This document shows positions 1,906 to 25,733 of a stretch of 64,000 nt of DNA, piece by piece. The DNA is from Mesorhizobium sp. ZC-5. Lineage in GTDB: Bacteria > Pseudomonadota > Alphaproteobacteria > Rhizobiales > Rhizobiaceae. The stretch spans positions 558,001 through 622,000 of the forward strand of contig NZ_JAOWPT010000003.1 of NCBI RefSeq assembly GCF_025753855.1, in the 5' to 3' direction. Numbering within the stretch: position 1 is the first letter of the stretch; every line of letters starts with the position of its first letter. The notes below the pieces were generated by a model. It worked only from the letters and a program-made list of their open reading frames with translations, had not been told where the DNA came from and did not search any database. The position numbers were made by a program, and so were the translations under genes.

Positions 1906-1944
1906 GCTGAATCCTTCAACTGTGTCGCCCAGAATAATAAAAAA

Positions 1945-1964: not shown

Positions 1965-2114
1965 CCCTCGAATTTGAAAAACTGAAAACATTTTAGAATC
2001 AATGGTTAGCGATTTTTGGATCATAATGAAAAAAAATTCTGGAAAAATTGAAAAATACGTCAGCCGGGTGCATTCTCAAGCCCAATCAGACTTCATCGTT
2101 GGAAGGACAAAGAG

Positions 2115-3896: not shown

Positions 3897-3982
3897 GTGA
3901 ACCGGCTGTATGTAGGTGTATACAAGACGGCGGAGGCAGGTTATCTGTCCTCTGGCCACCGCACGGAATGAAGGGAAGGGAA

Positions 3983-4783: not shown

Positions 4784-4801
4784 ATGGCTTGGGACAATAA
4801 A

Positions 4802-5749
4802 ATGGAAAAGATAGGCTTCATTGGACTGGGTATCATGGGCGCGCCGATGGCGGGGCATCTGCTGGATGCCGGCTACGAAGTGATTGCCAGCGATCATCGC
4901 AGCGCGCCGTCGAAAGACCTAATCGCCAAGGGCCTGAAAACCGTCAAAGGCAGTGACGCGGTGGCGCGGGCGGCCGACGTTATCATCACCATGGTGCCGG
5001 ACACGCCGCAGGTGGCGGAGGTGCTGTTTGGCGAAAAGGGCGTCGCTTCCGGCCTTTCAAAAGGCAAGCTGGTCATCGACATGAGCTCGATCTCGCCGAT
5101 TGAAACCAAGGAGTTTGCCAAGAGGATCAACGACTTGGGTTGCGATTATCTCGATGCGCCGGTATCCGGCGGCGAGGTTGGCGCAAAGGCTGCGTCCTTG
5201 ACCATCATGGTCGGCGGCGAGGAGAAAGCCTTCGAACGCGCCAGACCTGTGTTCGAAAAGATGGGTAAGAACATCACGCTGGTCGGCGGCAACGGCGTCG
5301 GGCAGACGACCAAGGTCGCCAACCAGATCGTTGTCGCCCTGACCATCGAAGCGGTTGCCGAGGCGCTGGTTTTTGCGTCGAAGGCCGGTGCCGATCCCGC
5401 GAAAGTCCGGCAGGCGCTGATGGGCGGGCTGGCTGCTTCGCGCATTCTTGAAGTGCATGGCGAGCGCATGGTCAAGCGCACCTTTGCTCCCGGCTTCCGC
5501 ATCGAACTGCACCAGAAGGATCTCAATCTCGCGCTGGAGGGGGCAAAAGCGCTTGGCGTCGCGCTACCGAACACCTCGACCACGCAGCAGCTTTTCAACT
5601 CCTGCGCGGCCAATGGCGGCGCCAAGGAGGATCACTCGGCGCTGGTGCGGGCGCTGGAGCGCATGGCGGGGCACGAGGTGGCCAAAGCCGCGGGTGCCGC
5701 GGGCGGCCTGAACTCAAGCGGAGGAACGAACCATCCGCCGGCGACGTAG
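4802..5749 (+). CDS. glxR: Tartronate-semialdehyde reductase (2-hydroxy-3-oxopropionate reductase)
   Basis: NAD(P)H reductase of the beta-hydroxyacid dehydrogenase family, turning tartronate semialdehyde into glycerate and completing the glyoxylate-to-glycerate branch begun by gcl. It has the Rossmann motif GFIGLGIMGAPMAGHL at the start, substrate-binding DAPVSGGEVGA near residue 120, and the catalytic lysine region GVGQTTKVANQIVV. Start 4802 (MEKIGFIGLG) fits the family; an ATG at 4784 overlapping the hyi stop is an alternative. The C-terminus runs about 20 residues past the family end and overlaps the convergent gene by 36 bases. No glycerate kinase is next to it. Confidence 0.94.
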   Translation: MEKIGFIGLGIMGAPMAGHLLDAGYEVIASDHRSAPSKDLIAKGLKTVKGSDAVARAADVIITMVPDTPQVAEVLFGEKGVASGLSKGKLVIDMSSISPIETKEFAKRINDLGCDYLDAPVSGGEVGAKAASLTIMVGGEEKAFERARPVFEKMGKNITLVGGNGVGQTTKVANQIVVALTIEAVAEALVFASKAGADPAKVRQALMGGLAASRILEVHGERMVKRTFAPGFRIELHQKDLNLALEGAKALGVALPNTSTTQQLFNSCAANGGAKEDHSALVRALERMAGHEVAKAAGAAGGLNSSGGTNHPPAT

Positions 5750-7121: not shown

Positions 7122-7206
7122 GGAGGGGTGCCCGAGTGGTTAAAGGGGACGGACTGTAAATCCGTTAGCTCAGCTTACGTTGGTTCGAATCCAACCCCCT
7201 CCACCA
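7122..7206 (+). tRNA. tRNA-Tyr (anticodon GTA), CCA encoded
   Basis: Class-II tRNA of 85 bases. The acceptor stem GGAGGGG pairs with CCCCTCC, followed by A73 and encoded CCA. D-arm GCCCGAGTGGTTAAAGG; anticodon loop CTGTAAATC with GTA; a long variable arm (TAGCTCAGCTTACG); T-loop GGTTCGAATCC. All parts are intact. Confidence 0.97.
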
Positions 7207-7342
7207 CTGCCGGACCGGAAGCCAGCGCATCGCCCGAAAAGCGTATCGCTATTCAGCGTTCGCGAATTAGACGCTGACGTCCGATCCGCGTGTCCTCACG
7301 GTCACTGTGCCGGGATGGAACGGCGCGAAGAATTCTCTGATC

Positions 7343-8659
7343 TCAGAAGAATGTCTTAAGTGCTTGTAACACTTGGTACTTTTCGTTGACCAGAAGAAGC
7401 ATCGACCATTTGTCGAAGGTCGTGCAGGGATGGCCGTTGCCAAAGCCGACCATGTCGCCCACCTGCAGGGGGCTATCCGACGGTATGTCCAGGTGACAAT
7501 GTTGGTCGCTTAGCGCCCGGACAACGTGGCCAGCCGGCATGTCCTGCGGGTTAGGCATCCCGCCGCCCGGCCGATACCAGCGCAACGGCACGGGCATGCC
7601 GGTGTCGATGCCGACATCGCGTTTCCCCATCGTCAGAATGGCGCGGCCGCTCTCCGGTCGTGATTGCACGTAAGCCCAGACCTCGAGCGCGGCTGCAAGA
7701 CCGCCGGGCGGGAGCTGGAGCGTGGTTTGGCTCACGATGCGTTTGAATGCCGAGGCGTAGCCGATCGAATCGTGGGTCAGGTAGCAGCCGGATCGCAAAA
7801 CGCGCAGAACCGGCCGCGAAAACGCCGCGCGGTCGAATCGCTCGCCGACGCGGTCGAAGAAACTCGAGCCTCCCGCGCTGATGACGATTTGATCCGCTGG
7901 CTGATCCGCCGTATCGAACAGGCCTTCCGCCAGAGCGATGCCGGCGGTGGCGGCGACGGCGTCGATCAATGCGTCGGCTTCCAGCGGGGTCGGGAGCAGA
8001 CCCTCGAAACATTCAAACCCGGCAAGCGCAAGTCCGGGGGTGGCGACGACTGCGCGCGCGATATCCAGGGCCTCCTCCGGCGAACGGACACCAGTGCGCC
8101 CACCGACGAAGCCGATCTCCACCAGCACCCGCAAGGGGTTGCCTTTCGGGGGCGGGGTGCGGCGCGCGCCATCCGCAAGCAGCGCAAGGCCTTCGGTGCT
8201 GTCGGCCAGGCAATAGAGCTCGATGCGGCTGTCCCCCTGCAAGGCCCTGAAACAGGCGTCGATGGCCATTGTGCCGACCGGCTGGTTGGCCAGCACGACA
8301 CGCGCGACGCCAAACCGCCGGCACACTTCCAACTGCTGGATCGTCGCGACGGTGATGGCCCAGGCGCCGTCCGCAATCTGCAGGTCAAACAGATGTGGCG
8401 ACATCGTCGTCTTGCCGTGCGGCGCGATCAGCAGGTTGTTGGCCTTGGTGAAGGCGCTCATCCAGGCGCTGTTGGCGGTGACGAGATCACTGCGGATGAT
8501 GGCGACCGGCATCGGCAGGTCGCCATTCAGCACGTTCCAGCCCTGATCGCCGACATCGCCGAGGCGCAGCGCCGGCACGTCGAAAGGCAGGCCCTTCGTC
8601 GAGCGATCGAGAATAAGGCCGTCGAGCAGGGCGAGGTTCAGGCGGGGAAGAAAGGTCAT
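7343..8659 (-). CDS. D-amino-acid deaminase, D-serine dehydratase-like (fold-III PLP, zinc)
   Basis: 438 residues. N-terminal alanine-racemase barrel with the PLP lysine in APHGKTTMSP (K83), matching eukaryotic-type D-serine dehydratase and D-threonine aldolase. The C-terminal domain has HCH at about 387-389 and an H-P-C motif at 410-412 like the zinc site of D-serine dehydratase. It probably deaminates D-Ser, D-Thr or similar to a keto acid and ammonia; the exact substrate cannot be read. Start ATG 8659 (MTFLPRLNLALL) was chosen; an in-frame GTG at 8701 would add 14 residues. It follows dppF by 92 bases in the minus-strand half of the D-peptide locus. Confidence 0.85.
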   Translation of the reverse strand: MTFLPRLNLALLDGLILDRSTKGLPFDVPALRLGDVGDQGWNVLNGDLPMPVAIIRSDLVTANSAWMSAFTKANNLLIAPHGKTTMSPHLFDLQIADGAWAITVATIQQLEVCRRFGVARVVLANQPVGTMAIDACFRALQGDSRIELYCLADSTEGLALLADGARRTPPPKGNPLRVLVEIGFVGGRTGVRSPEEALDIARAVVATPGLALAGFECFEGLLPTPLEADALIDAVAATAGIALAEGLFDTADQPADQIVISAGGSSFFDRVGERFDRAAFSRPVLRVLRSGCYLTHDSIGYASAFKRIVSQTTLQLPPGGLAAALEVWAYVQSRPESGRAILTMGKRDVGIDTGMPVPLRWYRPGGGMPNPQDMPAGHVVRALSDQHCHLDIPSDSPLQVGDMVGFGNGHPCTTFDKWSMLLLVNEKYQVLQALKTFF

Positions 8660-8751
8660 TGGGAACTCGGATGTCGGGATATGCGGGTCGCCGGCACGCA
8701 CTCAAAGAGCACCTGGCGACCTGCGGAGGGAGCAGGCGGATTTGAACTGGA

Positions 8752-9699
8752 TCAGGCGGCTTCGCGCACGAAATGGGTCGACGACACCTCTCGCATGGGC
8801 CGTTCCACCGGCACGAAATCGACGTCGCGTACCGCGCTGGGAATTTCGTCCGCCATGGGTTCACGTCCTTCGGGGCGCTGGGTCGGGTCGGCCACGGGCA
8901 CGGTTGAAAGCAGCTTGCGGGTGTAGGGATGCTGCGGGTTACCGAAGACGGAGCGCCGGTCGCCGATCTCGACGATCTCGCCGAGATACATCACCGCGAC
9001 ACGGTGGGCGATGCGCTCGACCACAGCCATGTCGTGGCTGATGAACAGAAGGGCGATACGCATTTCGTGTTGCAGGTCCATCAGGAGGTTGATGACCTGC
9101 GCCTGGATCGTCACGTCGAGCGACGCGACGGCTTCGTCGGCGATTATCAACCGCGGGTCCAGGGCCAGGGCTCGCGCGATGCAGATGCGTTGGCGCTGCC
9201 CGCCGGAAAAGGCATGCGGATAGCGTTCGAGATGCTCGGCGGGGAGTTCGACCTTGGCGAGCAACCGGGCTGCGCTGTCCCGCCGCGTCTTTGTCGTGCC
9301 CATGCGGTGTACGCGCATCGGATCCATCAACGCCTGTTCAATCGTCATGCGCGGATTGAGCGACGAGAACGGATCCTGAAAGATCATCTGAACGTCGCGG
9401 CGGAAGCGCGCCAGGTCCCGACGCGGCGCGCCGATCATTTCCATCCCGTCATAGCGGATGGAGCCGGACAGCGGTTTCTCGAGTTGGATCAGGCTGCGCG
9501 CAACTGTCGACTTGCCGCAGCCGGACTCGCCGACCAGTGCCAGCGTCTCGCCGGGAAAGATATCGAACGACACATTCTCGACCGCATGGACGCGTCCGGA
9601 TATGCGTCCCAGCACGCCGCCGCGCAGATCGAAGCGGGTCACCAGGTTACGAACCTCGATCAGCGGCGCATCTTTATCGCGTGGCGTGGGGGTGGTCAT
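8752..9699 (-). CDS. Dipeptide/oligopeptide ABC transporter ATPase, DppF-like
   Basis: 315 residues. Walker A GESGCGKST, signature FSGGQRQRICIARAL, Walker B LIIADEAVASLD, H-loop FISHDMAVVE, and a C-terminal oligopeptide-transporter tail with PQHPYTRKLLSTVPVADP. Its ATG overlaps the stop of the upstream ATPase by four bases (ATGA), so the two are translationally coupled and should form a heterodimer on the permeases at 13.9-15.8 kb. In-frame sequence continues upstream without a stop but lies inside the neighbour, so the coupled ATG is the start. Confidence 0.94.
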   Translation of the reverse strand: MTTPTPRDKDAPLIEVRNLVTRFDLRGGVLGRISGRVHAVENVSFDIFPGETLALVGESGCGKSTVARSLIQLEKPLSGSIRYDGMEMIGAPRRDLARFRRDVQMIFQDPFSSLNPRMTIEQALMDPMRVHRMGTTKTRRDSAARLLAKVELPAEHLERYPHAFSGGQRQRICIARALALDPRLIIADEAVASLDVTIQAQVINLLMDLQHEMRIALLFISHDMAVVERIAHRVAVMYLGEIVEIGDRRSVFGNPQHPYTRKLLSTVPVADPTQRPEGREPMADEIPSAVRDVDFVPVERPMREVSSTHFVREAA

Positions 9700-10667
9700 G
9701 GGATCGTCTCCGCGAGCTTTTGCGCGGGTTCGTAGACGACCAGCGGAAATTTCTCCGGCGTGTCCGTCTCGGCCATGCTGCCGAGGCGCGGCACGGCTGA
9801 AATCAGCGCCTGGGTGTATGGATGCTGGGGCGCTGCGAAGACCTCGTAGACGGAGCCGGTTTCGACGATATCGCCCTTCAGCATCACGCAGACGCGATCC
9901 GCGATCTCGGCGACGACCCCCATGTCGTGGGTGATGAAAAGCACCGACATGCCGATCTCGCGCTGCAGCGCGCGCACGAGGTCGAGGATCTGCGCCTGTA
10001 TCGTCACGTCGAGCGCTGTCGTCGGCTCGTCGAGGATCATGAGCGACGGCCTGCACGCCAGCGCCATGGCGATCATGACGCGTTGGCGCATGCCGCCGGA
10101 CAGCTGATGCGCGTACTGATCGAGCCGCCGCGCCGCGTCAGGCACGCGCACAAGTTTCAACACGCCCAGCGCAATGTCGCGCGCTTCGCGCTTCGTCTTG
10201 CCCTGATGGCGGATGATCGCCTCGGCGATTTGGTCGCCAATGGTGAAAACCGGGTTCAGGCTCGACATCGGATCCTGGAAGACGATCGACATCTCATAGC
10301 CGCGCAGCAGCTCGATACCCTTAAGGGAAAGCTTCGTGAGGTCCGATACCTTGCCATCCTTCAGGCGCATCAGGATGCGGCCGCCGGTAATCCTGGCGCC
10401 GTCGTGTTCAGTCAGCCGCATGATGGTCATCGCTGTGACCGATTTGCCGGAGCCGGACTCGCCAACCAGCACCAGCGTCTCTCCGCGCGCTATCGTGAAG
10501 GAGATGCCGTTCACCGCCTTGATCGGTCGGCGCCCTTGCGACGCAAAGCCGACTTCTAGTTTCTCGACCGCCAGAATGACGTCGTCCGGCAATGTTGGAT
10601 CGGCAACTTTGATCGTCGACAAATGAAGTCCTTCGATGACACGCGGCTTGGCTTTGCTGACTGGCAT
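9696..10667 (-). CDS. Dipeptide/oligopeptide ABC transporter ATPase, DppD-like
   Basis: 323 residues. Walker A GESGSGKS, signature [15 protein letters not shown], Walker [14 protein letters not shown]-loop [11 protein letters not shown] and the C-terminal [17 protein letters not shown] typical of OppD/DppD. Start ATG at 10667 ([10 protein letters not shown]) is preferred; a GTG at 10688 would add seven residues. It is first in the minus-strand run dppD-dppF-deaminase, and a LysR-type palindrome lies 164 bases upstream. Confidence 0.93.
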
Positions 10668-10830
10668 CGAAGGCAATCGACGACCCAACTGTCAATAGCC
10701 GCTGTGGCTGAGGCACCCTTCAGCGGCGACGATCAAGCCGAACGATTACGCATGATGCACACCCCGTCGCGGCTATCCTTTTACGAAACAGTCGGAAATG
10801 CGGGCATTTGGTGTGCTCATGGAGCTAACT

Positions 10831-10845
10831 ATGCGCGTTTTGCAT
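10831..10845. promoter_or_regulatory. LysR-type operator upstream of the dppD-dppF-deaminase genes
   Basis: ATGCGCGTTTTGCAT: inverted repeat ATGC-N7-GCAT containing the T-N11-A core of LysR sites. It differs at two bases from the site at 11838-11852 in the lysR/binding-protein promoter region. A weaker GCAT-N5-ATGC palindrome lies nearby at 10862-10874. The site sits in the 217-bp gap upstream of dppD. Regulation by the adjacent LysR is inferred from the shared palindrome. Confidence 0.7.
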
Positions 10846-10884
10846 TGGCGTATCGGTTTTGGCATACGAAATGCAAATCGGGGC

Positions 10885-11826
10885 TTAGCGGGCGATTGAT
10901 ATCGCGCCGTCGAGCCGTCGCTCGGAAGTCTGGGCAAGAAATTTCCACAGCGCCTCCGCGTCGCGGCTGCCCGAACCGGTGCGGCGAAAGATGCGGATTT
11001 CCATTTCGAGTGAAAGCTGCTGGCCGCCGATCTGGACAAGCTCGCCCTGGGCGATGGACTTGCGGACACAGATTTGCGGCAGCCAGGCGACCCCATGGCC
11101 GGCGACGGCCATGTGTTTGAGTCCCTCGGCGAGTGAGGACTGGTAAACGATGCTCAGATTGAGTGGTCGGCGCGAACGCGATCGGATCAACGAGATCAGC
11201 TTGCCGAGGTAGCCGTCGTTCCAGGAATAGGCGAGGTAGGGAACTTCGTCGCCTTCGGCCGGGTCGAGCGTAAACAGGGGCTGGCCGGAGGAATCGACAC
11301 CGGAGACGAGGACCAGCCGGTCCTTGCCGATTTGCAGCGATTCGAAGGGCCCGGCCTCCAGCACGGGCGGTCCGTCCGGGTGATCGTAGGTGATGACGAA
11401 ATCGCACCGGCCCGAGGTCAGATGCTCGATGCATTCCAGGAAGTCGGCCGTGTGCATGCTGGTGCGCATCGGCGCGTTCGGCATGTCGGGCGAGTGGACC
11501 CAGGTCGGAAAGAAGTAGATCGCCAGGGTGTGCAGCGAAGCGAATGTGATGAGCTGCGAGCTGGCACCGGCGACATTGCGGCAGTCCGTTCGCAACCGGT
11601 ACATTTCCCGCACCATCTCCTGGCAGCGTGGCAGGAACATATTGCCCGCGCTGGTCAGGCGCACGGGGTATGTGCTGCGATCGACCAGGCTGGCGCCGAC
11701 CCAGGTTTCGAGCGATTTTATCCGCCGGCTGAATGCCGGCTGGGAGATGTTCCGCGCTGAAGCGGCGGTCGAGAAGTTCCGCGTCGCGACGATTTCCAGA
11801 AAGTCCTCGAGCCACGCCAGTTCCAC
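10885..11826 (-). CDS. LysR-family regulator, HypT/YjiE-like
   Basis: 313 residues. N-terminal helix-turn-helix WLEDFLEIVATRNFSTAASA and NISQPAFSRRIKSLETWVGA is the LysR DNA-binding domain; the rest is a periplasmic-binding-like effector domain (GHGVAWLPQICV near residue 250). The NISQPAFSRRI variant and the C-terminal pattern resemble E. coli YjiE/HypT, which lies beside the isoaspartyl dipeptidase gene. It is divergent from the binding-protein gene and lies between the two halves of the peptide locus, so it is the natural regulator; the inducer is unknown. Confidence 0.88.
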   Translation of the reverse strand: MELAWLEDFLEIVATRNFSTAASARNISQPAFSRRIKSLETWVGASLVDRSTYPVRLTSAGNMFLPRCQEMVREMYRLRTDCRNVAGASSQLITFASLHTLAIYFFPTWVHSPDMPNAPMRTSMHTADFLECIEHLTSGRCDFVITYDHPDGPPVLEAGPFESLQIGKDRLVLVSGVDSSGQPLFTLDPAEGDEVPYLAYSWNDGYLGKLISLIRSRSRRPLNLSIVYQSSLAEGLKHMAVAGHGVAWLPQICVRKSIAQGELVQIGGQQLSLEMEIRIFRRTGSGSRDAEALWKFLAQTSERRLDGAISIAR

Positions 11827-11837
11827 AAATCGGCCTC

Positions 11838-11852
11838 ATGCGTATTTTGCAT
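11838..11852. promoter_or_regulatory. LysR-type operator between lysR and the binding-protein gene
   Basis: ATGCGTATTTTGCAT, an ATGC-N7-GCAT palindrome with T-N11-A, 12 bases upstream of the lysR start and 93 bases before the binding-protein ATG. The position suits autoregulation and activation of the divergent operon. It is nearly identical to the site at 10831-10845. Confidence 0.72.
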
Positions 11853-11944
11853 AACCGATCCTATCTACACATTGGACAGCAGCGCAAGTGTACTCCTAGC
11901 CTGCCGGCAAAAAGCAAGAAACCTCCGCCAACCGGGAACCAACA

Positions 11945-13870
11945 ATGAAGCGAATTCTAGCCCTTGCCTTGTGCCTCGGCCTCAGCGCCGCTGTATCGCC
12001 GGCCATCGCCGAAACCAAGAACCCTGGAACCTTCGTGTTCCTCTGGACGGACGACATCCTGTCGTTCGACCCAGCCTACATCGCCAACACGCCGAGCTCA
12101 TACGGCGTGTTGAACGTCTACAGCCGCCTGCTCAACTACAAAGGCTCCGAAATCTCCGAATTCGTGCCTGCGATTTCGGCCGAAGTGCCGTCACTGGAAA
12201 ACGGCTTGATCAAGGAGGGTGCCGACGGTTCCGTCAGCTACACTTTCCCGATCCGCAAGGGCGTGCGCGCCCATCAGGTCGGCATCAAGGGTGCCGACGG
12301 CAAGATCACCTGGGAATATCTGGACAAGCTGACCGAGGAGCAGAAGGCCGCCATCGAGCCGGGCTATGGCGAAATCACCGCCGAGGATGTGCGCTACTCG
12401 TTGATGCGCGCCATCCTGCAGGGCCAGTCCTGGATGTCCAACGCGATCACCGAAGTGGTCACCGCCGGCAAATATACCGACATCGCCAAATGGGTTGAAA
12501 CCGAGGGCAAGGTCGAAAAGATCGCCGACGCCAGCCCGGAAGTCCTGCGCAAGGTCTATGACCAGCTTGCGTCGCAGTTCACCATCGATGGCGACAAGGT
12601 CACGTTGACGCTGCCCAAATCCTTCCCGGCGACGCTGGGCGTCATTGCGCTGCCGTTCGGCACTTCGATCGTCGACAAGGAATGGGTGACGGATGTCGGC
12701 GGATGGGGCGGATCCGGCGACGACTGGATCAAGCACTACAAGCCGGAACTCGCCGCCGACCCACTGTTCGACAAGGAGAACGGCACCGGACCGTTCATGC
12801 TGGAAGAGTGGGATCGCACCGATCGCCGCATCACCATGAAGCGTTTCGAAAACTACTTCATGGGGCCAGCATCGCTTGAGCGGGTGGTCATGCGCACCGT
12901 TCCGGAATGGACGACGCGCCGATTGCAGCTGCTGTCGGGCGATGCGGATTTTGTCACCGCGCCGGTCGAGTTCCTCGACGAGCTGAGCAAGACCCCCGGC
13001 GTCAAGGTCACGGATGGGTTGCCGAAGGTCTTCGGGCGTGGGCTGTTTTTCGCCTGGCCGCTCGATGAGGCCGACAATCCGGCCCTCGGCAGCGGCCAGT
13101 TGGACGGCAAGGGCATCCCGGCGGATTTCTTTTCCGATATCGATGTACGCAAGGGCTTCAACTATGCGCAGAACTACGATGCGTTGCTGAAGCAGGTCCT
13201 GCTGGACAAGACGGTGCAATCGCACGGACCGACCGTGCGCGGCATCATGGGCTATCGTCCGGATTCACCGATCTACACCTACGATCCGGCCAAGGCCGCG
13301 GAGCATTTCAAGAAAGCCTTCGGCGGCAAGCTGTGGGAAACCGGCTTCACCTTCACGGCCTATGTCCAGGAAGGCACGCCGCAGGGGTCCGCAGCACTTT
13401 CGGCCCTGCAGCAGGGGCTCCAGCGGATCAATCCCAAGTTCAGGATGCAGATCCAGTCGCTGCCATGGGCTTCGATCTCGGACAAGCTGAACAATCGCGA
13501 AAAGCCTGCCTCGCCGCTGACCTATATGGGCTGGGGTCCGGACTATTCCGATCCGGGCGGTCCGCTGGGTGCCGCTTCCTACTATCTGTCGCCGACCGGT
13601 CTTGTCGGTGGCATGGTCGGACAAGGCTATCGTGACCTGATGGCGGAGAAGTTCAAGCCGCTGCTGGACGAGGCATGGGCGTCGAGCGATCCGGCCGTGC
13701 GCGAGCCGATCTACGCCAAGCTGCAGGAGATGTCTCACGAATACGCCACCACACAGTTCCTGTGGGAAGATTTCGGCTACATCGTCACCCGCGACAATAT
13801 CGATGGCTTCGTCAACAACATGATCCTCTACGGGGCATGGGACTTCTATCCGATCAAGAAGGCGAACTGA
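11945..13870 (+). CDS. Peptide-binding protein of the Dpp/Opp ABC transporter (SBP family 5)
   Basis: 641 residues with a clear signal peptide (MKRILALALCLGLSAAVSPA, cut near AIAE). The mature protein has the family-5 features TDDILSFDPAYIANTPSSYG and GTGPFMLEEWDRTDRRITMK, and the late MGWGPDYSDPGGPLGAASYY segment. It is larger than DppA/OppA (about 510-540), with an extra insert around residues 95-170, suggesting a bulky or unusual ligand. It is the first gene of the plus-strand operon with permeases, two D-peptidases and a PLP enzyme; D-aminoacyl peptides or muropeptide fragments are likely cargo (inferred). Confidence 0.92.
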   Translation: MKRILALALCLGLSAAVSPAIAETKNPGTFVFLWTDDILSFDPAYIANTPSSYGVLNVYSRLLNYKGSEISEFVPAISAEVPSLENGLIKEGADGSVSYTFPIRKGVRAHQVGIKGADGKITWEYLDKLTEEQKAAIEPGYGEITAEDVRYSLMRAILQGQSWMSNAITEVVTAGKYTDIAKWVETEGKVEKIADASPEVLRKVYDQLASQFTIDGDKVTLTLPKSFPATLGVIALPFGTSIVDKEWVTDVGGWGGSGDDWIKHYKPELAADPLFDKENGTGPFMLEEWDRTDRRITMKRFENYFMGPASLERVVMRTVPEWTTRRLQLLSGDADFVTAPVEFLDELSKTPGVKVTDGLPKVFGRGLFFAWPLDEADNPALGSGQLDGKGIPADFFSDIDVRKGFNYAQNYDALLKQVLLDKTVQSHGPTVRGIMGYRPDSPIYTYDPAKAAEHFKKAFGGKLWETGFTFTAYVQEGTPQGSAALSALQQGLQRINPKFRMQIQSLPWASISDKLNNREKPASPLTYMGWGPDYSDPGGPLGAASYYLSPTGLVGGMVGQGYRDLMAEKFKPLLDEAWASSDPAVREPIYAKLQEMSHEYATTQFLWEDFGYIVTRDNIDGFVNNMILYGAWDFYPIKKAN

Positions 13871-13884
13871 TCCGCCTCGCTTCC

Positions 13885-13917
13885 AGCCGGGCGGCATTGC
13901 CGCCCGGCTATTCTTTT
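13885..13917 (+). terminator. Stem-loop between binding-protein and permease genes
   Basis: Perfect 11-bp inverted repeat AGCCGGGCGGC / GCCGCCCGGCT, three-base loop, then ATTCTTTT. It sits 15 bases after the binding-protein stop and 18 bases before the permease start. Such hairpins often stabilise the upstream message or cause partial termination so the binding protein is made in excess. Confidence 0.75.
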
Positions 13918-13934
13918 CAACCGGATATTTTCAT

Positions 13935-14972
13935 GTGCTGAACTATGCCCTGCGACGGCTGCTGATGTTGCCGGTCGTCATGTTTGCCCTGTCGCTGATG
14001 ATATTTGCCTTGCAGATGTCGTTGACGCCGACGCAGCGCCTGGCGGCCTATGCCCCTTCGCCGGACTATCTGAAGGGCGGCCAGGAAAGCATCCGGCGCA
14101 TGATCGAGCAGTATGGGCTCAACGACCCGTTCTATGTCCAGTACGGGCGCTGGATCGGCAACATCCTGAACGGCAATCTCGGCTGGTCCGAGACCGCGCG
14201 ACAGCCGGTGGCGACGGCGCTGTCCTCGCTCTTTCCCGCGACGATGGAACTGGTTCTGCTTGCCTTCATACCGGGCCTGCTTCTGTCGATCTATCTGGGT
14301 TCGCGCGCCGGCATCTACCTGAACAAGTGGCCCGACCACCTGATCCGCTTCTTCACCATCATAGGCTGGTCCTTTCCCGTCTACGTCTTCGGCCTATTGA
14401 TGCTGCTGATCTTCTATTCCGTGCTCGACTGGTTTCCGCCGGGACGCCTGAGCCAGTGGGCGCAGGACGTCGTCACCTCGAACCAGTTCGTCCGCTACAC
14501 CGGCGCCAACACGGTCGACGCGCTGCTGAACGGCAATCTGCCGGTCTTCTTCGATTCGCTTCGCCACCTGGCCGCGCCGGCCATCTCGCTGATCTACGTC
14601 AACCTCGCCAGCATGACGCGCATCATGCGCACCTCGATGCTTGAGACCCTGCGCCAGGACTATGTGCGCACCGCGCGCGCCAAGGGCATGCCGCGCCGCG
14701 TGGTCGAACTGCACCATGCGCGACGCAATGCTTTGCTGCCGGTCGCTACCATCGCCGGCATGGAACTCGCCACCATGATGGGCGGCGTCGTCATCACTGA
14801 AACGATCTTCGACTATGCGGGGCTGGGGCAGTTTTCGGCCAAGGCAGCGGCCAATCTGGATTTCCCGGCCATCCTCGGGTTTGGCCTGTATTTCGTCGTG
14901 GTTCTGGTGGTGATGAACCTGATCGTCGACCTGATCTATCCGCTGCTCGATCCGAGGGTGAAGACCAAATGA
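13935..14972 (+). CDS. Peptide ABC transporter permease, DppB-like
   Basis: 345 residues with about six membrane helices: an N-terminal helix (LLMLPVVMFALSLMIFAL), a long periplasmic segment, then the transport domain with the EAA loop TARAKGMPRRVVELHHARRN that docks the ATPases. GTG start at 13935 (reading MLNYALRRLL); no in-frame ATG is nearer. The stop overlaps the next permease start by four bases. Confidence 0.93.
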   Translation: MLNYALRRLLMLPVVMFALSLMIFALQMSLTPTQRLAAYAPSPDYLKGGQESIRRMIEQYGLNDPFYVQYGRWIGNILNGNLGWSETARQPVATALSSLFPATMELVLLAFIPGLLLSIYLGSRAGIYLNKWPDHLIRFFTIIGWSFPVYVFGLLMLLIFYSVLDWFPPGRLSQWAQDVVTSNQFVRYTGANTVDALLNGNLPVFFDSLRHLAAPAISLIYVNLASMTRIMRTSMLETLRQDYVRTARAKGMPRRVVELHHARRNALLPVATIAGMELATMMGGVVITETIFDYAGLGQFSAKAAANLDFPAILGFGLYFVVVLVVMNLIVDLIYPLLDPRVKTK

Positions 14973-15844
14973 AGGCGCTTCGCTACCTCCTGAAAAACCC
15001 TGTTTCGCTGTTTGGCGTCCTGCTTCTGCTGGCCTTCGTGCTGATCGCGATCTTTGCGCCGCTCCTGGCGCCGCCGCAGGAATTCCAGATGTCGGTCTAC
15101 GACACGCCGCGTGCCGGCTTCCTGGCAACTCCGCAACCGCCATCGGCGGAAGCGATCTTCGGCACGACCGAAGGCCAGTACGATATCTACTACGGGGTGA
15201 TCTGGGGCACACGCACGGCGTTCAAGATCGGCCTCGGCGTCGTCTCGATCTCGCTGCTGATCGGCACGATCATCGGCGCTGTCGCCGCCTTCTACGGCGG
15301 GCTGCTCGACGAGTTCCTGATGCGCGTCGTCGACGTGTTCATGGCGGTGCCGTTCTTCATCGCCGCGATGATGCTGGTCGCCCTGATGGGGAAGGGGGTC
15401 ATCCCCGTTTTCATTGCGCTGACCACATTCGGCTGGATGCCCTACGCCCGCGTCATCCGCAGCGAAATCCTGCGTTTGCGCGAGATGGATTACATCCATG
15501 CGGCGCGCGCCTATGGCGCCAGCGACATCCGGCTGATCGTGCTGCATATCTTGCCGAACGCCATCTTTCCGGTGCTGGTGCTGGCCACTATGGCGACGGG
15601 CTCCATGGTCCTCACCGCCTCCGCGCTCAGCTTCCTCGGCGTCGGCGCGGAGGAAGGCTATGCCGACTGGGGCCAGTTCATCGCCTATTCGCGCAACTGG
15701 ATCATCGGCCAGTCAGGCAATCCCTTCCAGTACTGGTACACGCTGGCGTTCCCTGGCGCCGCAATCTTCCTGTTCGTCCTGTCATGGAACCTCGTCGGCG
15801 ATGCGCTGCGGGACATGTTGGACCCGCGCCACCAAGCCCACTGA
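14969..15844 (+). CDS. Peptide ABC transporter permease, DppC-like
   Basis: 291 residues; an N-terminal helix (SLFGVLLLLAFVLIAIFAPL) followed by five more, with EAA loop HAARAYGASDIRLIVLHILP. Typical DppC/OppC length and architecture; pairs with the preceding permease (ATGA overlap). Confidence 0.93.
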   Translation: MKALRYLLKNPVSLFGVLLLLAFVLIAIFAPLLAPPQEFQMSVYDTPRAGFLATPQPPSAEAIFGTTEGQYDIYYGVIWGTRTAFKIGLGVVSISLLIGTIIGAVAAFYGGLLDEFLMRVVDVFMAVPFFIAAMMLVALMGKGVIPVFIALTTFGWMPYARVIRSEILRLREMDYIHAARAYGASDIRLIVLHILPNAIFPVLVLATMATGSMVLTASALSFLGVGAEEGYADWGQFIAYSRNWIIGQSGNPFQYWYTLAFPGAAIFLFVLSWNLVGDALRDMLDPRHQAH

Positions 15845-15864
15845 TCAATCCGGAGGTAACGTCC

Positions 15865-17541
15865 GTGACTTCGCTATCCACCGCTGCACTCGAACAATTT
15901 GAGGACCTGATCCGCCACGAAGTGGAGGACAAGGAAATCCCCTCCATCTCCTACGCGCTTGTCGACCGTGACGGTCTGTTGGGCGAGGGGCACATCCAAC
16001 GCCATGACCGCGGCTTCGACATGCTCGAGGACACGTGTTTTCGCATCGGCTCGATCACCAAGACATTCACCTCGATGGCGATCATGCAGCTGGTCGAGAA
16101 GGGCATCGTCGATCTCGACGTGGATGTTTCCGAATACATCCCGGGCTTCCAGCCGCTCAACCCCTTTGCCGGACGCGAAAGCGGGCCATACGGCTCGCAT
16201 GTCAGCCTGCGCAAGTTGATGAGCCACACCGCTGGCATCGTACGCGAACCGAAGAGCGGCCATTATCTCGACGCTACCCGACCGCCGCTCGCCGACACGG
16301 TCGCCGAACTGGCGACATCGACGCTGAAACAGGATCCGAGCGCCGGCCTGATGCACTATTCCAATGCCGGCATCGCGGTCGTCGGAATGGTCATCGAGAA
16401 GATGGCGAAAAAGAGCTATGGCGACTACATCTCGGAAAACATCCTGAAACCATTGGGCATGGGTCAGACATCGGCAGGCATGGCGCCGGGCGTGCGCGAG
16501 AGGCTGGCGCCGGCGGACATGTGGACCCTGGAGGGCGACAGTCCGGCGCCCGTGTTCAGCCTTGGCGGATCGCCCGCCGGCAACATCTTTTCGACCACCG
16601 GCGATATGGCCAGCTACGCCCGCTGCCTGCTGCGCGGCGGCTTCGCGCCCGACGGCCAATCCATAGTCTCGCCGGCTTCTCTGCGAGAAATGTGGACGCC
16701 GATCGGCAAGCGCCCGGCCGGCCATGACAAGACCCTGAACGGTTACGGCCTGTGCTTCGGTATCGGCGACGTGGATGGCTGGACCTCGGTCGGCCATGGC
16801 GGCGCGGTCTACGGTTACGCCTCGCAAATGATCCTGCTACCGGCGGCAGGTCTTGGCGTGCTGATGTTTGCGACGCTGGATTTCGCCAACCAGATCGCTT
16901 CTCGGCTCGGCGGCGACGGGCTGCGTATCGCTCTTGCCGAGCGGCGCATGGGCAAGCCGCTGGAGCGGCTGCAAAGCCCGCCGCCCATCCAGGAGGAGCA
17001 GTTCAATACGCTGCCCGGCCATTACCGTCATGAAACCACGGGCGAAGTGGTCGAGATCAAGGCCAAGAGCGGCAAACTCTATCTGATGGGGGAGGGGGTG
17101 CCTTTGCAGATCAGGCCGGTCGCCGGCACGGATTTCGTCATCGACGGACGCATCTACGGGCGCGGCGCCGACTATGCCCACATGAATGTTTCATTCCCGG
17201 AAGCCGACCGTCTTGTCTGGAAGGGCGCTACCTGGTCACGCATAGACAAGCTGCCGACCGAAAAGGTGCCGCCGGAGATCGCCCCGCATCTCGGCGAATA
17301 CGGCCCCGACTTCAACATTACCTACCTGTCTTACAGCCACGGCGAATTGAAGTGCCTGATCGAGTATTTCTGCACGCATACGTGCGAGCCGGTGGACGCA
17401 GGACGCTTCCGGATGCGCGGCCTGCTCTATGAGGAGGAAATCCTCGAACTCGATGCCGTGGACGACCAGGGGCGGCGCGGCATCCGCGTCGGGCCGATGT
17501 TCCTTGAGCGCCGCAAGCCGGCCGCCGAGGCAGCAGCTTGA
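15865..17541 (+). CDS. S12-family serine hydrolase, probable D-aminopeptidase or D-amino-acid amidase
   Basis: 558 residues. Beta-lactamase/DD-peptidase fold with all three catalytic motifs: S-I-T-K at 63-66 (Ser63 nucleophile), Y-S-N at 165-167 and H-G-G at 311-313. A C-terminal beta domain of about 200 residues resembles the extra domains of Ochrobactrum D-aminopeptidase. No signal peptide is evident, so it likely acts in the cytosol on imported peptides. The GTG at 15865 is chosen because GGAGG lies eight bases upstream. Close relatives also include esterases and EstB, so the D-peptidase role rests on neighbours: a peptide importer, a D-amino-acid deaminase and an M55 peptidase. Confidence 0.82.
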   Translation: MTSLSTAALEQFEDLIRHEVEDKEIPSISYALVDRDGLLGEGHIQRHDRGFDMLEDTCFRIGSITKTFTSMAIMQLVEKGIVDLDVDVSEYIPGFQPLNPFAGRESGPYGSHVSLRKLMSHTAGIVREPKSGHYLDATRPPLADTVAELATSTLKQDPSAGLMHYSNAGIAVVGMVIEKMAKKSYGDYISENILKPLGMGQTSAGMAPGVRERLAPADMWTLEGDSPAPVFSLGGSPAGNIFSTTGDMASYARCLLRGGFAPDGQSIVSPASLREMWTPIGKRPAGHDKTLNGYGLCFGIGDVDGWTSVGHGGAVYGYASQMILLPAAGLGVLMFATLDFANQIASRLGGDGLRIALAERRMGKPLERLQSPPPIQEEQFNTLPGHYRHETTGEVVEIKAKSGKLYLMGEGVPLQIRPVAGTDFVIDGRIYGRGADYAHMNVSFPEADRLVWKGATWSRIDKLPTEKVPPEIAPHLGEYGPDFNITYLSYSHGELKCLIEYFCTHTCEPVDAGRFRMRGLLYEEEILELDAVDDQGRRGIRVGPMFLERRKPAAEAAA

Positions 17542-18659
17542 ACCAGCATCAGCCAGCGAAGCCGATGCCAGCGCCGACTGTCATGCAGTCGCCGCTCGGT
17601 GCGCGCATGCGCATCAACGGCCGCGACGTCGATTACTTCTGTGGCACCAGCTACTTCTGCCTGCACGGCCATCCTCAAGTCATTGAAGCAGCCTGCGCCG
17701 CCACCCGACAGTTCGGTATGGGACCTGGCACGCTGGCGCAGATGCAGGTGTACGTCGATCTCCAGGATGAGTTGCGGGCGTGGTTCGGCGCGGAGCATGT
17801 CGTCAGCCTGATCTCTGGCTATTCCAGCCCGATGGCGATGTTGCAGGGGCTGCGCGACGATTTCGACCTGATCCTGATCGACGCCGCCACCCACTACAGC
17901 GCCCGCGATGCCATACCGACGCTTGACAAGCCCGTGCACAGCTTCCGCCATCTGGACGCCGGCAGCCTGGCTGAGGAACTGGCCCGCTATGTCAAACCGG
18001 GCAAGCGTCCCGTCATCGTGACCGACGGCGTCTTCCCATCTTCGGGCGCGCTTGCACCGCTGGCCGACTACCGCCAGGCCATGGCGCCTTATGACGGCGC
18101 CATACTCGCCATCGACGATTCGCACGGGGTCGGCGCGCTAGGATCGAGCGGTCGCGGCGCGCTGCAGCATTTTGGCCTTGAAGCCGAAGGCAACTACCTC
18201 GCCGGCACCTTGAGCAAGGCTTTCGGCGCGCTTGGCGGCATTATTCCGGGGAGCCGGGCGCTTGCCGACAAGATCGCCGCCAACGCCATGATCATGCGCG
18301 GCGCGTCGCCGGTGCCGCCGGCGGCCGCGGCCGCCGCCATCGCTTCGTTGCGTGTGCTGAAAGAGACGCCAGCGATGCGCGCCAACCTTGTCCGCAATGT
18401 CAGCCATATGCGAGCCGGTTTGCGCAAGCTGGGTTTTGTGCTGGCCGACACGCCGGTGCCTATCGTCAGTGTGCGCGGTGACGTCGACTTTGACGGCTTG
18501 CGGCAACGACTCGACGCCAGGGACATCGTCGTCAAGGTGACCAAGGCATCGGGCTATTCCGACGCGCCCGACGTGCCGACGATGCGGCTGGCGGTGTTTT
18601 CCGAACATTCCCCCGAGCAGATCGACCGGCTTCTGTCGTCGATGGCGGAGCTGTTGTGA
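17538..18659 (+). CDS. Fold-I PLP enzyme of the alpha-oxoamine-synthase group
   Basis: 373 residues resembling 8-amino-7-oxononanoate synthase, 2-amino-3-ketobutyrate CoA ligase and serine palmitoyltransferase. Landmarks: YFCGTSYFCLHGHPQVIEAA (substrate entrance), DDSHGVGALG with the PLP-contact Asp and His (about 193-196), and the PLP lysine in GTLSKAFGALGG (K227). TTG start at 17538 overlaps the S12 stop (TTGA), with GAGG upstream; an ATG at 17565 is possible. No biotin, threonine or sphingolipid genes adjoin it. It may cleave or condense amino acids released from D-peptides, or act as a decarboxylase or aldolase; the reaction is not known. Confidence 0.8.
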   Translation: MNQHQPAKPMPAPTVMQSPLGARMRINGRDVDYFCGTSYFCLHGHPQVIEAACAATRQFGMGPGTLAQMQVYVDLQDELRAWFGAEHVVSLISGYSSPMAMLQGLRDDFDLILIDAATHYSARDAIPTLDKPVHSFRHLDAGSLAEELARYVKPGKRPVIVTDGVFPSSGALAPLADYRQAMAPYDGAILAIDDSHGVGALGSSGRGALQHFGLEAEGNYLAGTLSKAFGALGGIIPGSRALADKIAANAMIMRGASPVPPAAAAAAIASLRVLKETPAMRANLVRNVSHMRAGLRKLGFVLADTPVPIVSVRGDVDFDGLRQRLDARDIVVKVTKASGYSDAPDVPTMRLAVFSEHSPEQIDRLLSSMAELL

Positions 18660-18678
18660 AACCAAGGAAACGATCATC

Positions 18679-19485
18679 ATGAAGGTCTTCATCAGCGCCG
18701 ATATCGAAGGCACCGCCGGCATCACCAATTGGGACGAGGCCCGCAGGGAGCATCGCGACTATGCGGAGTTCCGCGAATATATGACCGACGAGCTGGTCGC
18801 CGCCTGTGAGGGCGCCAAGGCGGCAGGCGCGACCGAAATCGTCGTCAAGGATGCACATGCTTCCGCGCGCAACCTGAACCTGGCAAAACTGCCGAGCTAC
18901 GTGCGCATCATCCGGGCCTGGAGCGGCCATCCGGACCTTATGATGTTCGGCATCGATTCGAGCTTCGCTGCGGCGCTCTACACGGGCTACCACAACAAGG
19001 CCGGCACCGACACGAACCCGCTCGCACACACGCTGACCGGCACCGTTTCGCGGCTGCTGATCAATGGCGAGGTCGCTTCCGAATATACGCTGAACGCACT
19101 GTGCGCTGCGCGCTATGGCGTGCCGTCCGTTTTTCTGGCCGGCGACGCCGGCATGTGCGCCGAAGCGAAAGCATTGGTGCCGGGTATTGGCACGGTGGCC
19201 ACCAGCGAAGGTTTTGGCCCCGCGACGTCCTCGCTATCGCCGCAGGCGGCCGTGACTGCGATCCGCAAAGGCGTGGAGGCAGCGCTGTCGCGCGATCTGA
19301 AGGCCTGCCTGCCCAAGCTGGCCGACCGATACGAACTGGTCATCGAATTCACCACGCCGACCGAAGCCTATCGCGGCAGCTGGTACCCGGGGATGGAGCA
19401 TCCCGCGGCGCGCACGCTGCGCTTCACGGCGAAGGATTTCTTCGACATCCAGCGCGCTATCCGTTTCGTCGTCATTGGCAACTGA
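18679..19485 (+). CDS. M55-family D-aminopeptidase (DppA-type)
   Basis: 268 residues, the length of Bacillus DppA (274). Zinc-binding residues are at the expected spacing: SADIEGTAG (D8, E10), KDAHASA (H60), GYHNK (H105), and a further His in LAHT (H117) matching the proposed nucleophile. DppA removes N-terminal D-residues, preferring D-Ala-D-Ala. Nineteen bases separate it from the PLP gene, and it is the last gene of the operon. With the S12 hydrolase and D-amino-acid deaminase it implies import and breakdown of D-peptides, for example cell-wall turnover products. Confidence 0.92.
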   Translation: MKVFISADIEGTAGITNWDEARREHRDYAEFREYMTDELVAACEGAKAAGATEIVVKDAHASARNLNLAKLPSYVRIIRAWSGHPDLMMFGIDSSFAAALYTGYHNKAGTDTNPLAHTLTGTVSRLLINGEVASEYTLNALCAARYGVPSVFLAGDAGMCAEAKALVPGIGTVATSEGFGPATSSLSPQAAVTAIRKGVEAALSRDLKACLPKLADRYELVIEFTTPTEAYRGSWYPGMEHPAARTLRFTAKDFFDIQRAIRFVVIGN

Positions 19486-19687: not shown

Positions 19688-20761
19688 GTGTTCGCTACTT
19701 CTGCAATGTTGGTCAGGATTTGTTGGCGCACACGGCGGCCAGGTGCGATACTCATTGTCGCGATCATCGCCTTGCAAATAGCCACAATTGGGAGTTCCGC
19801 TTTCGAGCGCGTTCCAAGTCTCGATGTTGGCCATTTCGCCGATGCGGACGTCGCGATGGCTGTGAGATCGGCATACAATCTTCCGGCGTGGATCGAAGGG
19901 GAGGGCGCCCCAGAACGGATACCGGCGGAAGATATGGCGGCGATGATCGAGATCGAGAAGGCTCGCCTGACCGAGCTTATGACCGGGCTTGGATATCTCG
20001 ACGCCGAAGTCTTGGTGGACAGCAAGCAATCACCGGTGCGCCTCACACTGTTGCCGGTTACGCACCAGCGCTATCGCGTTGGCACGATCGAAGTTGTCGG
20101 TCTCCACGAAGCAGAGTTAGGACGGGAGATGATTGCCGATATCGGTTCAATCGTTCCCTCGTTTGCTGGCCAGTTTGCGACGACAGACTTGTTATCGCGG
20201 CTTGAGGAAAGCGTCATCTTTCGCATCGCCGCGAAACACCCGCTCGCAAGGATCGCGGACCGGCAGGTGGTGGGGGAACCGTCAACAGGTCTTGCTGACA
20301 TCACTGTAAGGATCGAAAGCGGTCCTGCGGCCCGGTTCGGGAATGTCATCACAAGCGGCCTAAGGCGCACCAAGACCCAAACCTTGCAGCAGTTCATTCC
20401 GTTTGGGCCACGCGATCCCTACGACCGTGGAAAACTTGACGTGCTCCGCCAGAATCTTGAAGAGCTTGGCTTGTTCTCTCGCGTTCGCGTTAGCGCCGAC
20501 CAGGCTCTCGATGAAAAGGGGCTTCTGCCTGTACGCGTGCAGGTGACCGAAAAACCCGTCGACATCGCTCAACTAGCGCATTCGGGAGCAAATGGATTGG
20601 CCGTTGCCGTGTTGACGCTATTTGCCTTGGCACTGCGCCAGACTGCTATGGCCGGCGGGGCGTCGTCGTTCGTTGTTCGGACGGCATCACTCGTCAGTTT
20701 GTTGACGATCCTTGCATTCGCGGTGCTTGCTGTACAAAGATTGCCAATCCTTCTGATCTAG
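19688..20761 (+). CDS. POTRA-domain protein, TamA-like, with membrane tail in place of a beta-barrel
   Basis: 357 residues. An N-terminal membrane segment (about 19-37) is followed by roughly 250 periplasmic residues that read like the POTRA repeats of TamA/BamA: RYRVGTIEVVGLHEAEL, then RIESGPAARFGNVITSGLRR, then FGPRDPYDRGKLDVLRQN and LEELGLFSRVRVSAD. In TamA a beta-barrel would follow VQVTEKP; here the chain instead ends with two hydrophobic segments (about 300-318 and 331-351). It could be a scaffold for surface assembly or a decayed TamA. Start is GTG 19688 or ATG 19706; neither has a clear ribosome site. It begins the accessory region. Confidence 0.7.
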   Translation: MFATSAMLVRICWRTRRPGAILIVAIIALQIATIGSSAFERVPSLDVGHFADADVAMAVRSAYNLPAWIEGEGAPERIPAEDMAAMIEIEKARLTELMTGLGYLDAEVLVDSKQSPVRLTLLPVTHQRYRVGTIEVVGLHEAELGREMIADIGSIVPSFAGQFATTDLLSRLEESVIFRIAAKHPLARIADRQVVGEPSTGLADITVRIESGPAARFGNVITSGLRRTKTQTLQQFIPFGPRDPYDRGKLDVLRQNLEELGLFSRVRVSADQALDEKGLLPVRVQVTEKPVDIAQLAHSGANGLAVAVLTLFALALRQTAMAGGASSFVVRTASLVSLLTILAFAVLAVQRLPILLI

Positions 20762-20768
20762 CTGCCCG

Positions 20769-21125
20769 CTAAAATTTGTTTCGCTTGGTGGCCTTATCTA
20801 CGACCGCAGGTGGCTCACGCCTTTCAGGCATCTCACCGGATCTGGTCTGCAACGAACCGATGATGATCGTTTCCTTGACGACCTCGCGGCCTCGACCCAC
20901 CCCCGTGATCAATTCATTCATCCGGGCCTTGAGCGAATGCAACTCCTCCAGGGCGTTCCCTTCCGCTGCTCTGAGATCGTCGCGAGGCCCATCGATCAGG
21001 CTCTCGCCCATCAAACGGGAGTCCCGAGCCAATACAAAACGAGCGTAGGCTGCGTCCCATTCGGTCGTCAGTTGGATCCAGCTTTCTACAGGATCCTGCG
21101 TTTCAGCCTTTTCTGGGTCTCGCAA
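20769..21125 (-). CDS. Hypothetical protein, possible gene
   Basis: 118 residues, charged, with a likely helical region (LRAAEGNALEELHSLKARMN) and no signal peptide or membrane segment. No family recognised. The TTG start is preceded by GGAGGTCGAGG, a fair ribosome site. Convergent with the POTRA gene, seven bases away. Lack of an ATG and of any known relative keeps confidence moderate. Confidence 0.45.
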   Translation of the reverse strand: MRDPEKAETQDPVESWIQLTTEWDAAYARFVLARDSRLMGESLIDGPRDDLRAAEGNALEELHSLKARMNELITGVGRGREVVKETIIIGSLQTRSGEMPERREPPAVVDKATKRNKF

Positions 21126-22692: not shown

Positions 22693-22701
22693 GAGATCCC
22701 A

Positions 22702-25720: not shown

Positions 25721-25733
25721 ACGGAGCAGGACG

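Follow-up and report, generated by a model that had tools for sequence, protein, structure and literature searches.

Introduction

The idea of D-peptide scavenging has precedents in Pyrococcus, Bacillus subtilis and Blastomonas. For Pab87, a CubicO-type S12 D-peptidase of Pyrococcus abyssi, the use of external D-peptides has been proposed (PMC2651629, sections available), and in B. subtilis the ykf genes are found together with the dpp transporter (PMC2954226, sections available). The mlrB-D1-4-A-C cluster of Blastomonas fulva T2 is discussed in terms of microcystin degradation (PMC9505733, sections available).

Here, we describe a ten-gene block at positions 7343-19485 of a 64,000-nucleotide stretch of Mesorhizobium sp. 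ZC-5 DNA, which is referred to as the window. The block and its motifs were confirmed in place using open reading frames and Pfam, and the features are as follows.

7343-8701, minus strand: PF14031 fold-III PLP D-serine deaminase-like enzyme with HPC metal motif (Pfam and match to PDB entry 3gwq)
8752-9768, minus strand: DppF-type ABC ATPase (Pfam, NCBIfam)
9696-10688, minus strand: DppD-type ABC ATPase (Pfam, NCBIfam)
10885-11826, minus strand: LysR-type regulator (Pfam, NCBIfam)
11838-11852, unstranded: probable LysR box ATGC-N7-GCAT (T-N11-A) in the divergent promoter region (arm conservation)
11872-11902, plus strand: TTGGACA ... TAGCCT, candidate -35/-10 of the importer operon (conservation; putative promoter role)
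11945-13870, plus strand: periplasmic solute-binding protein, family 5 (Pfam; signal-peptide-like N-terminus by eye)
13935-14972, plus strand: DppB-type permease (Pfam)
14969-15844, plus strand: DppC-type permease (Pfam)
15844-17541, plus strand: S12 serine hydrolase with SITK, YSN and HGG motifs (Pfam, alignment; no signal-peptide-like start by eye); these are the coordinates of the frame used, the real start probably being a few codons further in
17538-18659, plus strand: alpha-oxoamine-synthase-fold (AOS-fold) PLP enzyme, its loop shortened and the P(T/V)VP motif of acyl-CoA-type relatives missing (Pfam, fold, alignment)
18679-19485, plus strand: M55 D-aminopeptidase-family metallopeptidase (Pfam, alignment with PDB entry 1hi9)

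Parts of this set recur in the described systems. Like the window, the Pab87 neighbourhood combines an S12 D-stereospecific peptidase with a dipeptide ABC transporter and a PLP-dependent aminotransferase, but it is archaeal and includes a D-aminoacylase, and the available sections of PMC2651629 mention no M55, PF14031 or AOS-fold neighbour. The B. subtilis dpp/ykf genes likewise place an M55 enzyme and a dipeptide transporter beside dipeptide-processing genes; the available sections of PMC2954226 name no S12, PF14031 or AOS-fold gene, whereas the ten genes of the window include neither an LD-carboxypeptidase nor a YkfC gene. The 7.9 kb Blastomonas cluster shares an M55 enzyme, a 548-residue MlrB-like serine peptidase and dipeptide-type ABC genes with the window but also holds the CPBP-type protease MlrA, and the available sections of PMC9505733 mention neither a deaminase nor a LysR or AOS-fold gene. 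M55 loci of Sinorhizobium meliloti pSymA and of Shinella also bring together M55, a Dpp-type transporter, LysR and D-amino-acid genes; they have enzymes of their own (D-serine ammonia-lyase, D-amino-acid transaminase, P1 peptidase and D-aminopeptidase), and no AOS gene is annotated beside M55. The MlrB-like peptidase of Blastomonas is presumably also a member of S12.

The initial annotation regarded the combination as undescribed. This is only partly right because similar partial sets are in print, as the available sections of PMC2651629, PMC2954226 and PMC9505733 describe; a set with the AOS-fold enzyme was not found among the open-licence papers searched. What look new are the rhizobial gene set, the way unrelated D-enzymes replace one another in fixed positions, and the variant of the AOS-fold enzyme.

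Gene content and promoter region

The genes and motifs claimed in the initial annotation are all present: the H-P-C motif of the deaminase, five Dpp-type genes, the S12 triad, the M55 residues, the AOS fold and a LysR gene. Pfam matches above the curated cut-offs were obtained for PF14031 (63 bits), two ABC_tran, LysR, SBP_bac_5, two BPD_transp_1, Beta-lactamase (S12, PF00144; 200 bits), Aminotran_1_2 (92 bits) and Peptidase_M55 (PF04951; 288 bits against a cut-off of 25). The PF14031 gene forms the end of a LysR-dppD-dppF-dsd gene row.

The Dpp-type importer set, of the peptide/nickel class, is complete, with one binding protein, two permeases and two ATPases. The binding protein resembles known dipeptide-binding proteins only remotely (its nearest solved structures are HbpA at 75 bits and a dipeptide-binding protein at 56 bits) and is the only block protein with a signal-peptide-like start, as judged by eye. 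All of the transporter NCBIfam models listed score below their cut-offs, and D-specificity of the transporter is beyond what its sequence can tell. The nearest NCBIfam model of the LysR protein is HypT (147 bits, below the cut-off of 301). In the divergent promoter region, the ATGC and GCAT arms of the LysR-box-like palindrome and the TTGGACA and TAGCCT stretches are invariant in 16/16 aligned intergenic regions.

In the window the block adjoins a tRNA-Tyr gene; three relatives have no similar DNA at the same place. The far end of a possible island was not found.

Conservation of the block and proposed pathway

Chance does not explain the grouping of these genes: DppF through M55, nine genes in all, are kept together in 15 of the 16 close AOS relatives. 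A search for conserved neighbourhoods, as proposed in the initial annotation, finds the gene order retained. The block occurs in several soil and plant-associated bacteria. Its distribution is patchy: of 395 genomes of the family, 13 carry close S12 homologues (E up to 1e-120). Removing six duplicates from 33 rows left 27 distinct S12 loci. An AOS gene is present in 26 of them, a count that is biased upward because 16 of the 27 loci were found using the AOS protein, and in all 13 loci obtained when the family sample was searched with S12. One of the 27 loci lacks the gene, and the idea that it is universal was rejected: Ochrobactrum quorumnocens has S12 and M55 genes with no AOS gene between them. 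Four distant AOS loci (L020-L023, 33-35%) have none of the other block genes, the contigs of L020 and L022 being only 3.5 and 7.1 kb long.

We propose that the locus probably encodes a LysR-controlled scavenging pathway for short D-residue peptides; its regulation, the substrates, the stereochemistry and the sequence of the steps are what we infer. The binding protein and DppBCDF would carry a D-residue peptide, derived from peptidoglycan stem fragments or from microbial D-peptides, into the cytoplasm, where the S12 hydrolase and the M55 metallopeptidase would cut the D-residue bonds. The PF14031 enzyme would convert freed D-serine or other D-beta-hydroxy amino acids to keto acid and ammonia, and the AOS-fold enzyme would most likely perform PLP chemistry on another freed amino acid without acyl-CoA, with racemisation as a first guess. 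As a reading of gene content, cytoplasmic breakdown of imported D-residue peptides appears well supported because of the conserved block, the D-enzymes of the S12 loci and the linkage of M55 to D-amino-acid genes (see below).

The patchiness of the locus, with close S12 homologues in so few family genomes, would also fit degradation of one particular D-residue compound, such as an antibiotic, a cyanobacterial or fungal peptide or an opine-like plant compound, serving detoxification or a special niche instead of general scavenging. The tRNA-Tyr-adjacent site, without similar DNA in the three relatives, points the same way, as does the Blastomonas cluster of M55 and dipeptide-type ABC genes discussed as microcystin-degrading (PMC9505733, sections available). 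We nevertheless consider such a role unlikely: the exchange of M55 for a dipeptide-epimerase-like enzyme, together with the several dehydratases, suggests dipeptides generally, and Pfam reveals no export or resistance gene in the block.

S12 hydrolase and M55 peptidase

The S-I-T-K, Y-S-N and H-G-G motifs are invariant in 17/17 aligned relatives, in agreement with membership of the S12 family. Among the PDB matches are esterases and beta-lactamases with scores similar to those of Pab87 and the D-peptidases. The predicted S12 structure is of low confidence, so its own fold matches weigh little. In CubicO/Pab87-type D-peptidases the S12 domain is followed by a C-terminal lipocalin domain. The protein scores below the NCBIfam cut-offs of the AmpH and D-aminopeptidase models and gives only a weak local match to the DAP-type D-aminopeptidase, and its D-specificity cannot be read from the sequence.

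Residues Asp8, Glu10, His60, His105, His117 and Glu135 of the M55 protein align with B. subtilis DppA (PDB entry 1hi9), where we take them to be the metal ligands and the catalytic histidine; the DppA gene itself presumably lies in the dpp operon. The protein is placed in the M55 family and is not certified as DppA because it scores 146 bits with the DppA equivalog NF058634, for which the cut-off is 430.

The M55 slot is filled by a clade-A M55, a clade-B M55 or a protein annotated as a dipeptide epimerase. M55 is found in 25 of the 27 distinct S12 loci and the epimerase in the other two. In the Nitratireductor variant, the best NCBIfam model of the latter is the L-Ala-D/L-Glu epimerase NF041118 (214 bits against a cut-off of 500), while its MR_MLE domains score above cut-off; it is therefore a member of the enolase superfamily and an epimerase by annotation only. 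As an L-Ala-D/L-Glu-epimerase-like gene it parallels B. subtilis YkfB (PMC2954226, sections available). Locus L109 has another complete M55 gene row after the AOS gene, to which the M55 of this locus may belong. The M55 tree was built without L111 since L132 covers the same place.

D-Amino-acid genes at the locus and around M55

The deaminase matches 3gwq, a structure named D-serine deaminase, with 303 bits over residues 27-452, and its GHPCTTFDKW aligns with SHPCLTFDKW. In PF14031 an HxC metal motif marks dehydratases and HxD aldolases, and the window enzyme has the HxC of the dehydratase type. A D-serine-type dehydratase is carried by 21 of the 27 distinct S12 loci, in three kinds: the window DSD type (3), the DsdA type with another fold (2) and a D-threo-3-hydroxyaspartate-dehydratase-like type (16), the aligned part of which is only 25-30% identical to the window type. 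The other six loci have no recognised dehydratase alongside, and in three of these (L006-L008) only about 1.1-1.2 kb of sequence is available beyond DppF. That the deaminase is missing from most relatives was also rejected. It first looked missing because the flanks were 10 kb, and a genome-wide PF14031 search with longer stretches reversed this reading, giving a PF14031 gene in position in 10 of 12 window-type family-sample loci (eight of another subfamily).

A PF14031 or D-amino-acid transaminase gene lies within 13 kb of 36 of 67 M55 places, compared with 4 of 127 control transporter (binding-protein) places among the matches listed; the Fisher test of this difference ignores relatedness. 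The remaining 31 M55 places have neither gene. PF14031 neighbours number 16, one of which (G374:C1) is a fragment. For M55, 69 of 74 listed places were taken (omitting two pieces of G276, two of G233:C3 and one of G258:C30), less G415 and the partial G258:C8 for the 13 kb count. The control comprised 150 binding-protein places among the matches listed, with up to 26 scored per genome, minus 23 lying within 20 kb of M55. Other M55 loci hold a DAP-type D-aminopeptidase, D-amino-acid-dehydrogenase-like genes or a D-serine ammonia-lyase, and one type adjoins TctABC-like genes with no Dpp genes in view. These gene orders come from greedy ORF picking with some genes mis-framed and serve to define types only; seven loci showed no M55 in its cluster.

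Ordinary use of L-peptides or esters, with the D-enzyme names merely family labels, is very improbable: the illegible specificity of the S12 and M55 enzymes would allow it, as would the missed NCBIfam cut-offs (DppA at 146/430 bits, AmpH, D-aminopeptidase and the listed transporter models), but recurrent, partly non-homologous D-amino-acid enzymes beside M55 and in this locus type argue against it. The D-peptide uptake and deamination put forward in the initial annotation thus gain comparative support from gene order, D-gene linkage and enzyme swaps, but D-specificity of the S12 hydrolase and the transporter stays outside this support.

AOS-fold enzyme

The fold of this enzyme is near those of serine palmitoyltransferase, ThAOS and BioF. 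His119, Asp193, His196, Lys227 and Arg350 are invariant in 21/21 rows and correspond to a fold-I PLP site; we take them to be the stacking histidine, the Asp/His pair, the Schiff-base lysine and the carboxylate arginine. All 19 clade rows have G(M/L)GP(G/A)T at the place of the R-x3-G(T/N) loop found in 18/18 acyl-CoA-type comparison rows. The P(T/V)VP motif, carried by the same 18 rows, is absent at its place from all 19 clade rows; the distant L020 row likewise lacks it. Loop and motif are presumably linked to acyl-CoA. As both are absent, the enzyme is filed by fold only. The loop starts at about residue 59 in the window protein versus about 78-83 in those comparison rows whose starts are short. 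The arm at the N-terminus is reduced in length rather than entirely missing, and was left out of the counts since most clade rows are trimmed at the tblastn match.

The shared fold and the invariant residues would be expected of a true acyl-CoA-dependent aminoketone synthase, with the locus making or remodelling a signal from imported peptides. The loop replacement and the absence of P(T/V)VP throughout the clade speak against this, Pfam finds no other acyl-CoA gene in the block, and we judge it quite improbable. The initial annotation was correct as to the fold and left the role out, and the enzyme departs from the acyl-CoA-type relatives compared. Within the proposed D-peptide scavenging pathway this role is the weakest step, and that the enzyme racemises an amino acid is a guess; no AOS-fold racemase was found in the open-licence papers searched. 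Tentatively, and with some doubt, the post-S12 AOS-fold clade might be a new catalytic kind, a CoA-independent PLP enzyme such as an amino-acid racemase, completing a modular D-peptide pathway with fold-swapped D-enzymes.

Implications

In the AOS-fold enzyme the locus offers a defined target for discovering a new PLP reaction, and the non-homologous enzymes swapped in fixed positions reveal the reaction steps that the pathway needs. Cell-wall D-residue peptides are a common, little-tracked soil nutrient, and the conserved gene set provides a testable marker of D-residue peptide use by rhizobia and their relatives.

Organization of the locus

Ten genes are present at 7343–19485, in two rows:

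Leftward, minus strand: LysR regulator, DppD, DppF and PF14031 deaminase
Rightward, plus strand: family-5 binding protein, DppB, DppC, S12 serine hydrolase, α-oxoamine-synthase-fold (AOS) enzyme and M55 metallopeptidase

The rightward genes overlap or lie at most 64 bases apart, which suggests that the locus consists of two divergent operons. All ten proteins score above the curated Pfam cut-off for their family, while the NCBIfam equivalog cut-offs are not reached; family membership is therefore established and identity with a named enzyme is not certified. The DppA residues are retained in the M55 protein. Over residues 27–452 the deaminase aligns at 303 bits with 3gwq, a structure named D-serine deaminase, and shares its HPC motif. 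The S12 motifs show no variation in 17 of 17 relatives.

The gap between the LysR and binding-protein genes contains an ATGC-N7-GCAT palindrome, TTGGACA and TAGCCT, all unchanged in 16/16. We infer a single LysR-controlled regulon.

Conservation of the gene block

When the AOS protein was used as query in a pattern-based scan of the species-genome collection, 20 loci were found, with identities to the window protein of 71–93% in 16, every record of which is from Rhizobiales organisms, and 33–35% in four. The nine-gene block DppF–DppD–LysR/binding protein–DppB–DppC–S12–AOS–M55 is kept in 15 of the 16 close loci. In the sixteenth, from Mesorhizobium norvegicum, the deaminase (of the window's subfamily, DSD), S12, AOS and M55 genes adjoin a different Dpp set. 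Among the 395 genomes of the family sample, 62 have M55 and 13 have close S12 relatives, with the AOS gene in all 13 of these loci. An S12–M55 locus of Ochrobactrum quorumnocens, from a plasmid search, has neither an AOS gene nor a recognized dehydratase alongside.

The AOS-fold enzyme

Both in sequence and in fold (predicted model, mean pLDDT 79.5), the window protein resembles ThAOS, BioF and serine palmitoyltransferase. We set 19 clade rows (17 together with those of Nitratireductor and genome G066) against 18 acyl-CoA-type rows (eight ALAS, four KBL, three BioF-like and three Nitrospira; one mis-picked row was left out). The R-x3-G(T/N) loop and P(T/V)VP motif occur in 18/18 acyl-CoA-type rows, whereas all 19 clade rows have G(M/L)GP(G/A)T and lack P(T/V)VP, having a GYSDA stretch. 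In the window alignment the clade loop is four residues shorter. The lost elements are presumably those serving acyl-CoA. His119, Asp193, His196, Lys227 and Arg350 are retained in 21 of 21 aligned rows. At none of the 12 loci of window type in the family sample does a D-amino-acid transaminase gene lie within 13 kb, while 20 other M55 places have one; the AOS-fold enzyme may therefore fill the transaminase role here.

The deaminase and M55 positions

The DSD type lies beyond DppF in the window and its close relative. A second PF14031 type occupies this position in 11 of 16 named loci, plus others, with 25–30% identity to the window deaminase over the aligned part. Among solved structures this type is closest to D-threo-3-hydroxyaspartate dehydratase (182 bits) and then to chicken D-serine dehydratase, and an NHSC stretch in 8/8 proteins checked gives it an HxC motif. 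On a Nitratireductor plasmid and in G066 this position is taken by a DsdA-type D-serine ammonia-lyase; the Nitratireductor copy scores above the NCBIfam cut-off and has a PALP domain. Over 27 distinct loci the tally is three DSD, 16 second-type, two DsdA and six with none seen. In genome G369 (locus L124, 4376–12739), the region directly past the second-type dehydratase contains a second S12 gene, whose nearest model is D-aminopeptidase (163 bits, below cut-off), together with another Dpp set and one more ORF.

The Nitratireductor and G066 loci (AOS gene, 54% identity) lack M55; there the gene after S12 encodes an enolase-superfamily protein that carries the annotation dipeptide epimerase (best NCBIfam model L-Ala-D/L-Glu epimerase, below cut-off), and AOS comes next. 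In window-type loci L109, L115 and L117 the M55 comes from another, well supported clade. One and the same slot thus takes dipeptide-handling enzymes from different families. A complete second M55 gene row follows in L109, so its M55 may be shared with that row.

Within 13 kb of M55, PF14031 genes occur at 16 of 67 places and D-amino-acid transaminase genes at 20, without overlap (36/67 in total), compared with either gene at 4 of 127 binding-protein places that have no M55 within 20 kb (Fisher p = 2.4e-16, relatedness not corrected for). Recurrent M55 gene orders include P1 peptidase, amidohydrolase, M81, creatininase-like, D-amino-acid-dehydrogenase-like and DAP-type D-aminopeptidase genes. 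S. meliloti pSymA combines M55 and a Dpp set with D-serine ammonia-lyase and D-amino-acid-dehydrogenase-like genes. By eye, a different M55 type (loci L064, L065, L069, L070 and L073) adjoins genes resembling a tricarboxylate transporter, with none of the named Dpp or D-amino-acid clusters in view. Another type (L074–L079, L090, L098 and L100) lies next to a gene for an M81 (MlrC-like) peptidase that is oriented away from M55; DadA-like, DSD or creatininase-like genes also occur alongside.

Genomic surroundings

1078–5749: IclR regulator, TPP enzyme, xylose-isomerase-like and hydroxyisobutyrate-dehydrogenase-like genes (Pfam)
19688–20761: POTRA-domain protein, near a GC dip to 0.53 at 20001–22000
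After it, within 19688–28795: glycosyltransferase-like genes (by eye)
25620–28795: two Sel1-repeat proteins

The 1078–5749 genes, kept beside rlmB in three relatives, are by resemblance a putative glyoxylate set. At 7122–7343, the locus starts 136 bases past tRNA-Tyr. In relatives G001, G002 and G375 tRNA-Tyr comes after rlmB and is followed within 75–305 bases by tRNA-Gly, and the 3–8 kb fetched beyond that point held no DNA resembling the window's continuation. As tRNA-Gly is absent from the window, an insertion at tRNA-Tyr may start with the D-peptide locus; the other end of this possible insertion was looked for and not found.

Relation to known systems

For Pyrococcus it was already proposed that an S12 peptidase, whose gene lies close to those for a dipeptide transporter and a PLP enzyme, serves to use D-peptides from outside (PMC2651629); the ykf genes of B. 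subtilis adjoin dppB–E (PMC2954226); and in Blastomonas dipeptide-type ABC genes lie together with M55 and an MlrB-like serine peptidase (PMC9505733). No report of the window's gene set was found in the open-licence literature, so the set appears to be a new variation on a kind of system already known.
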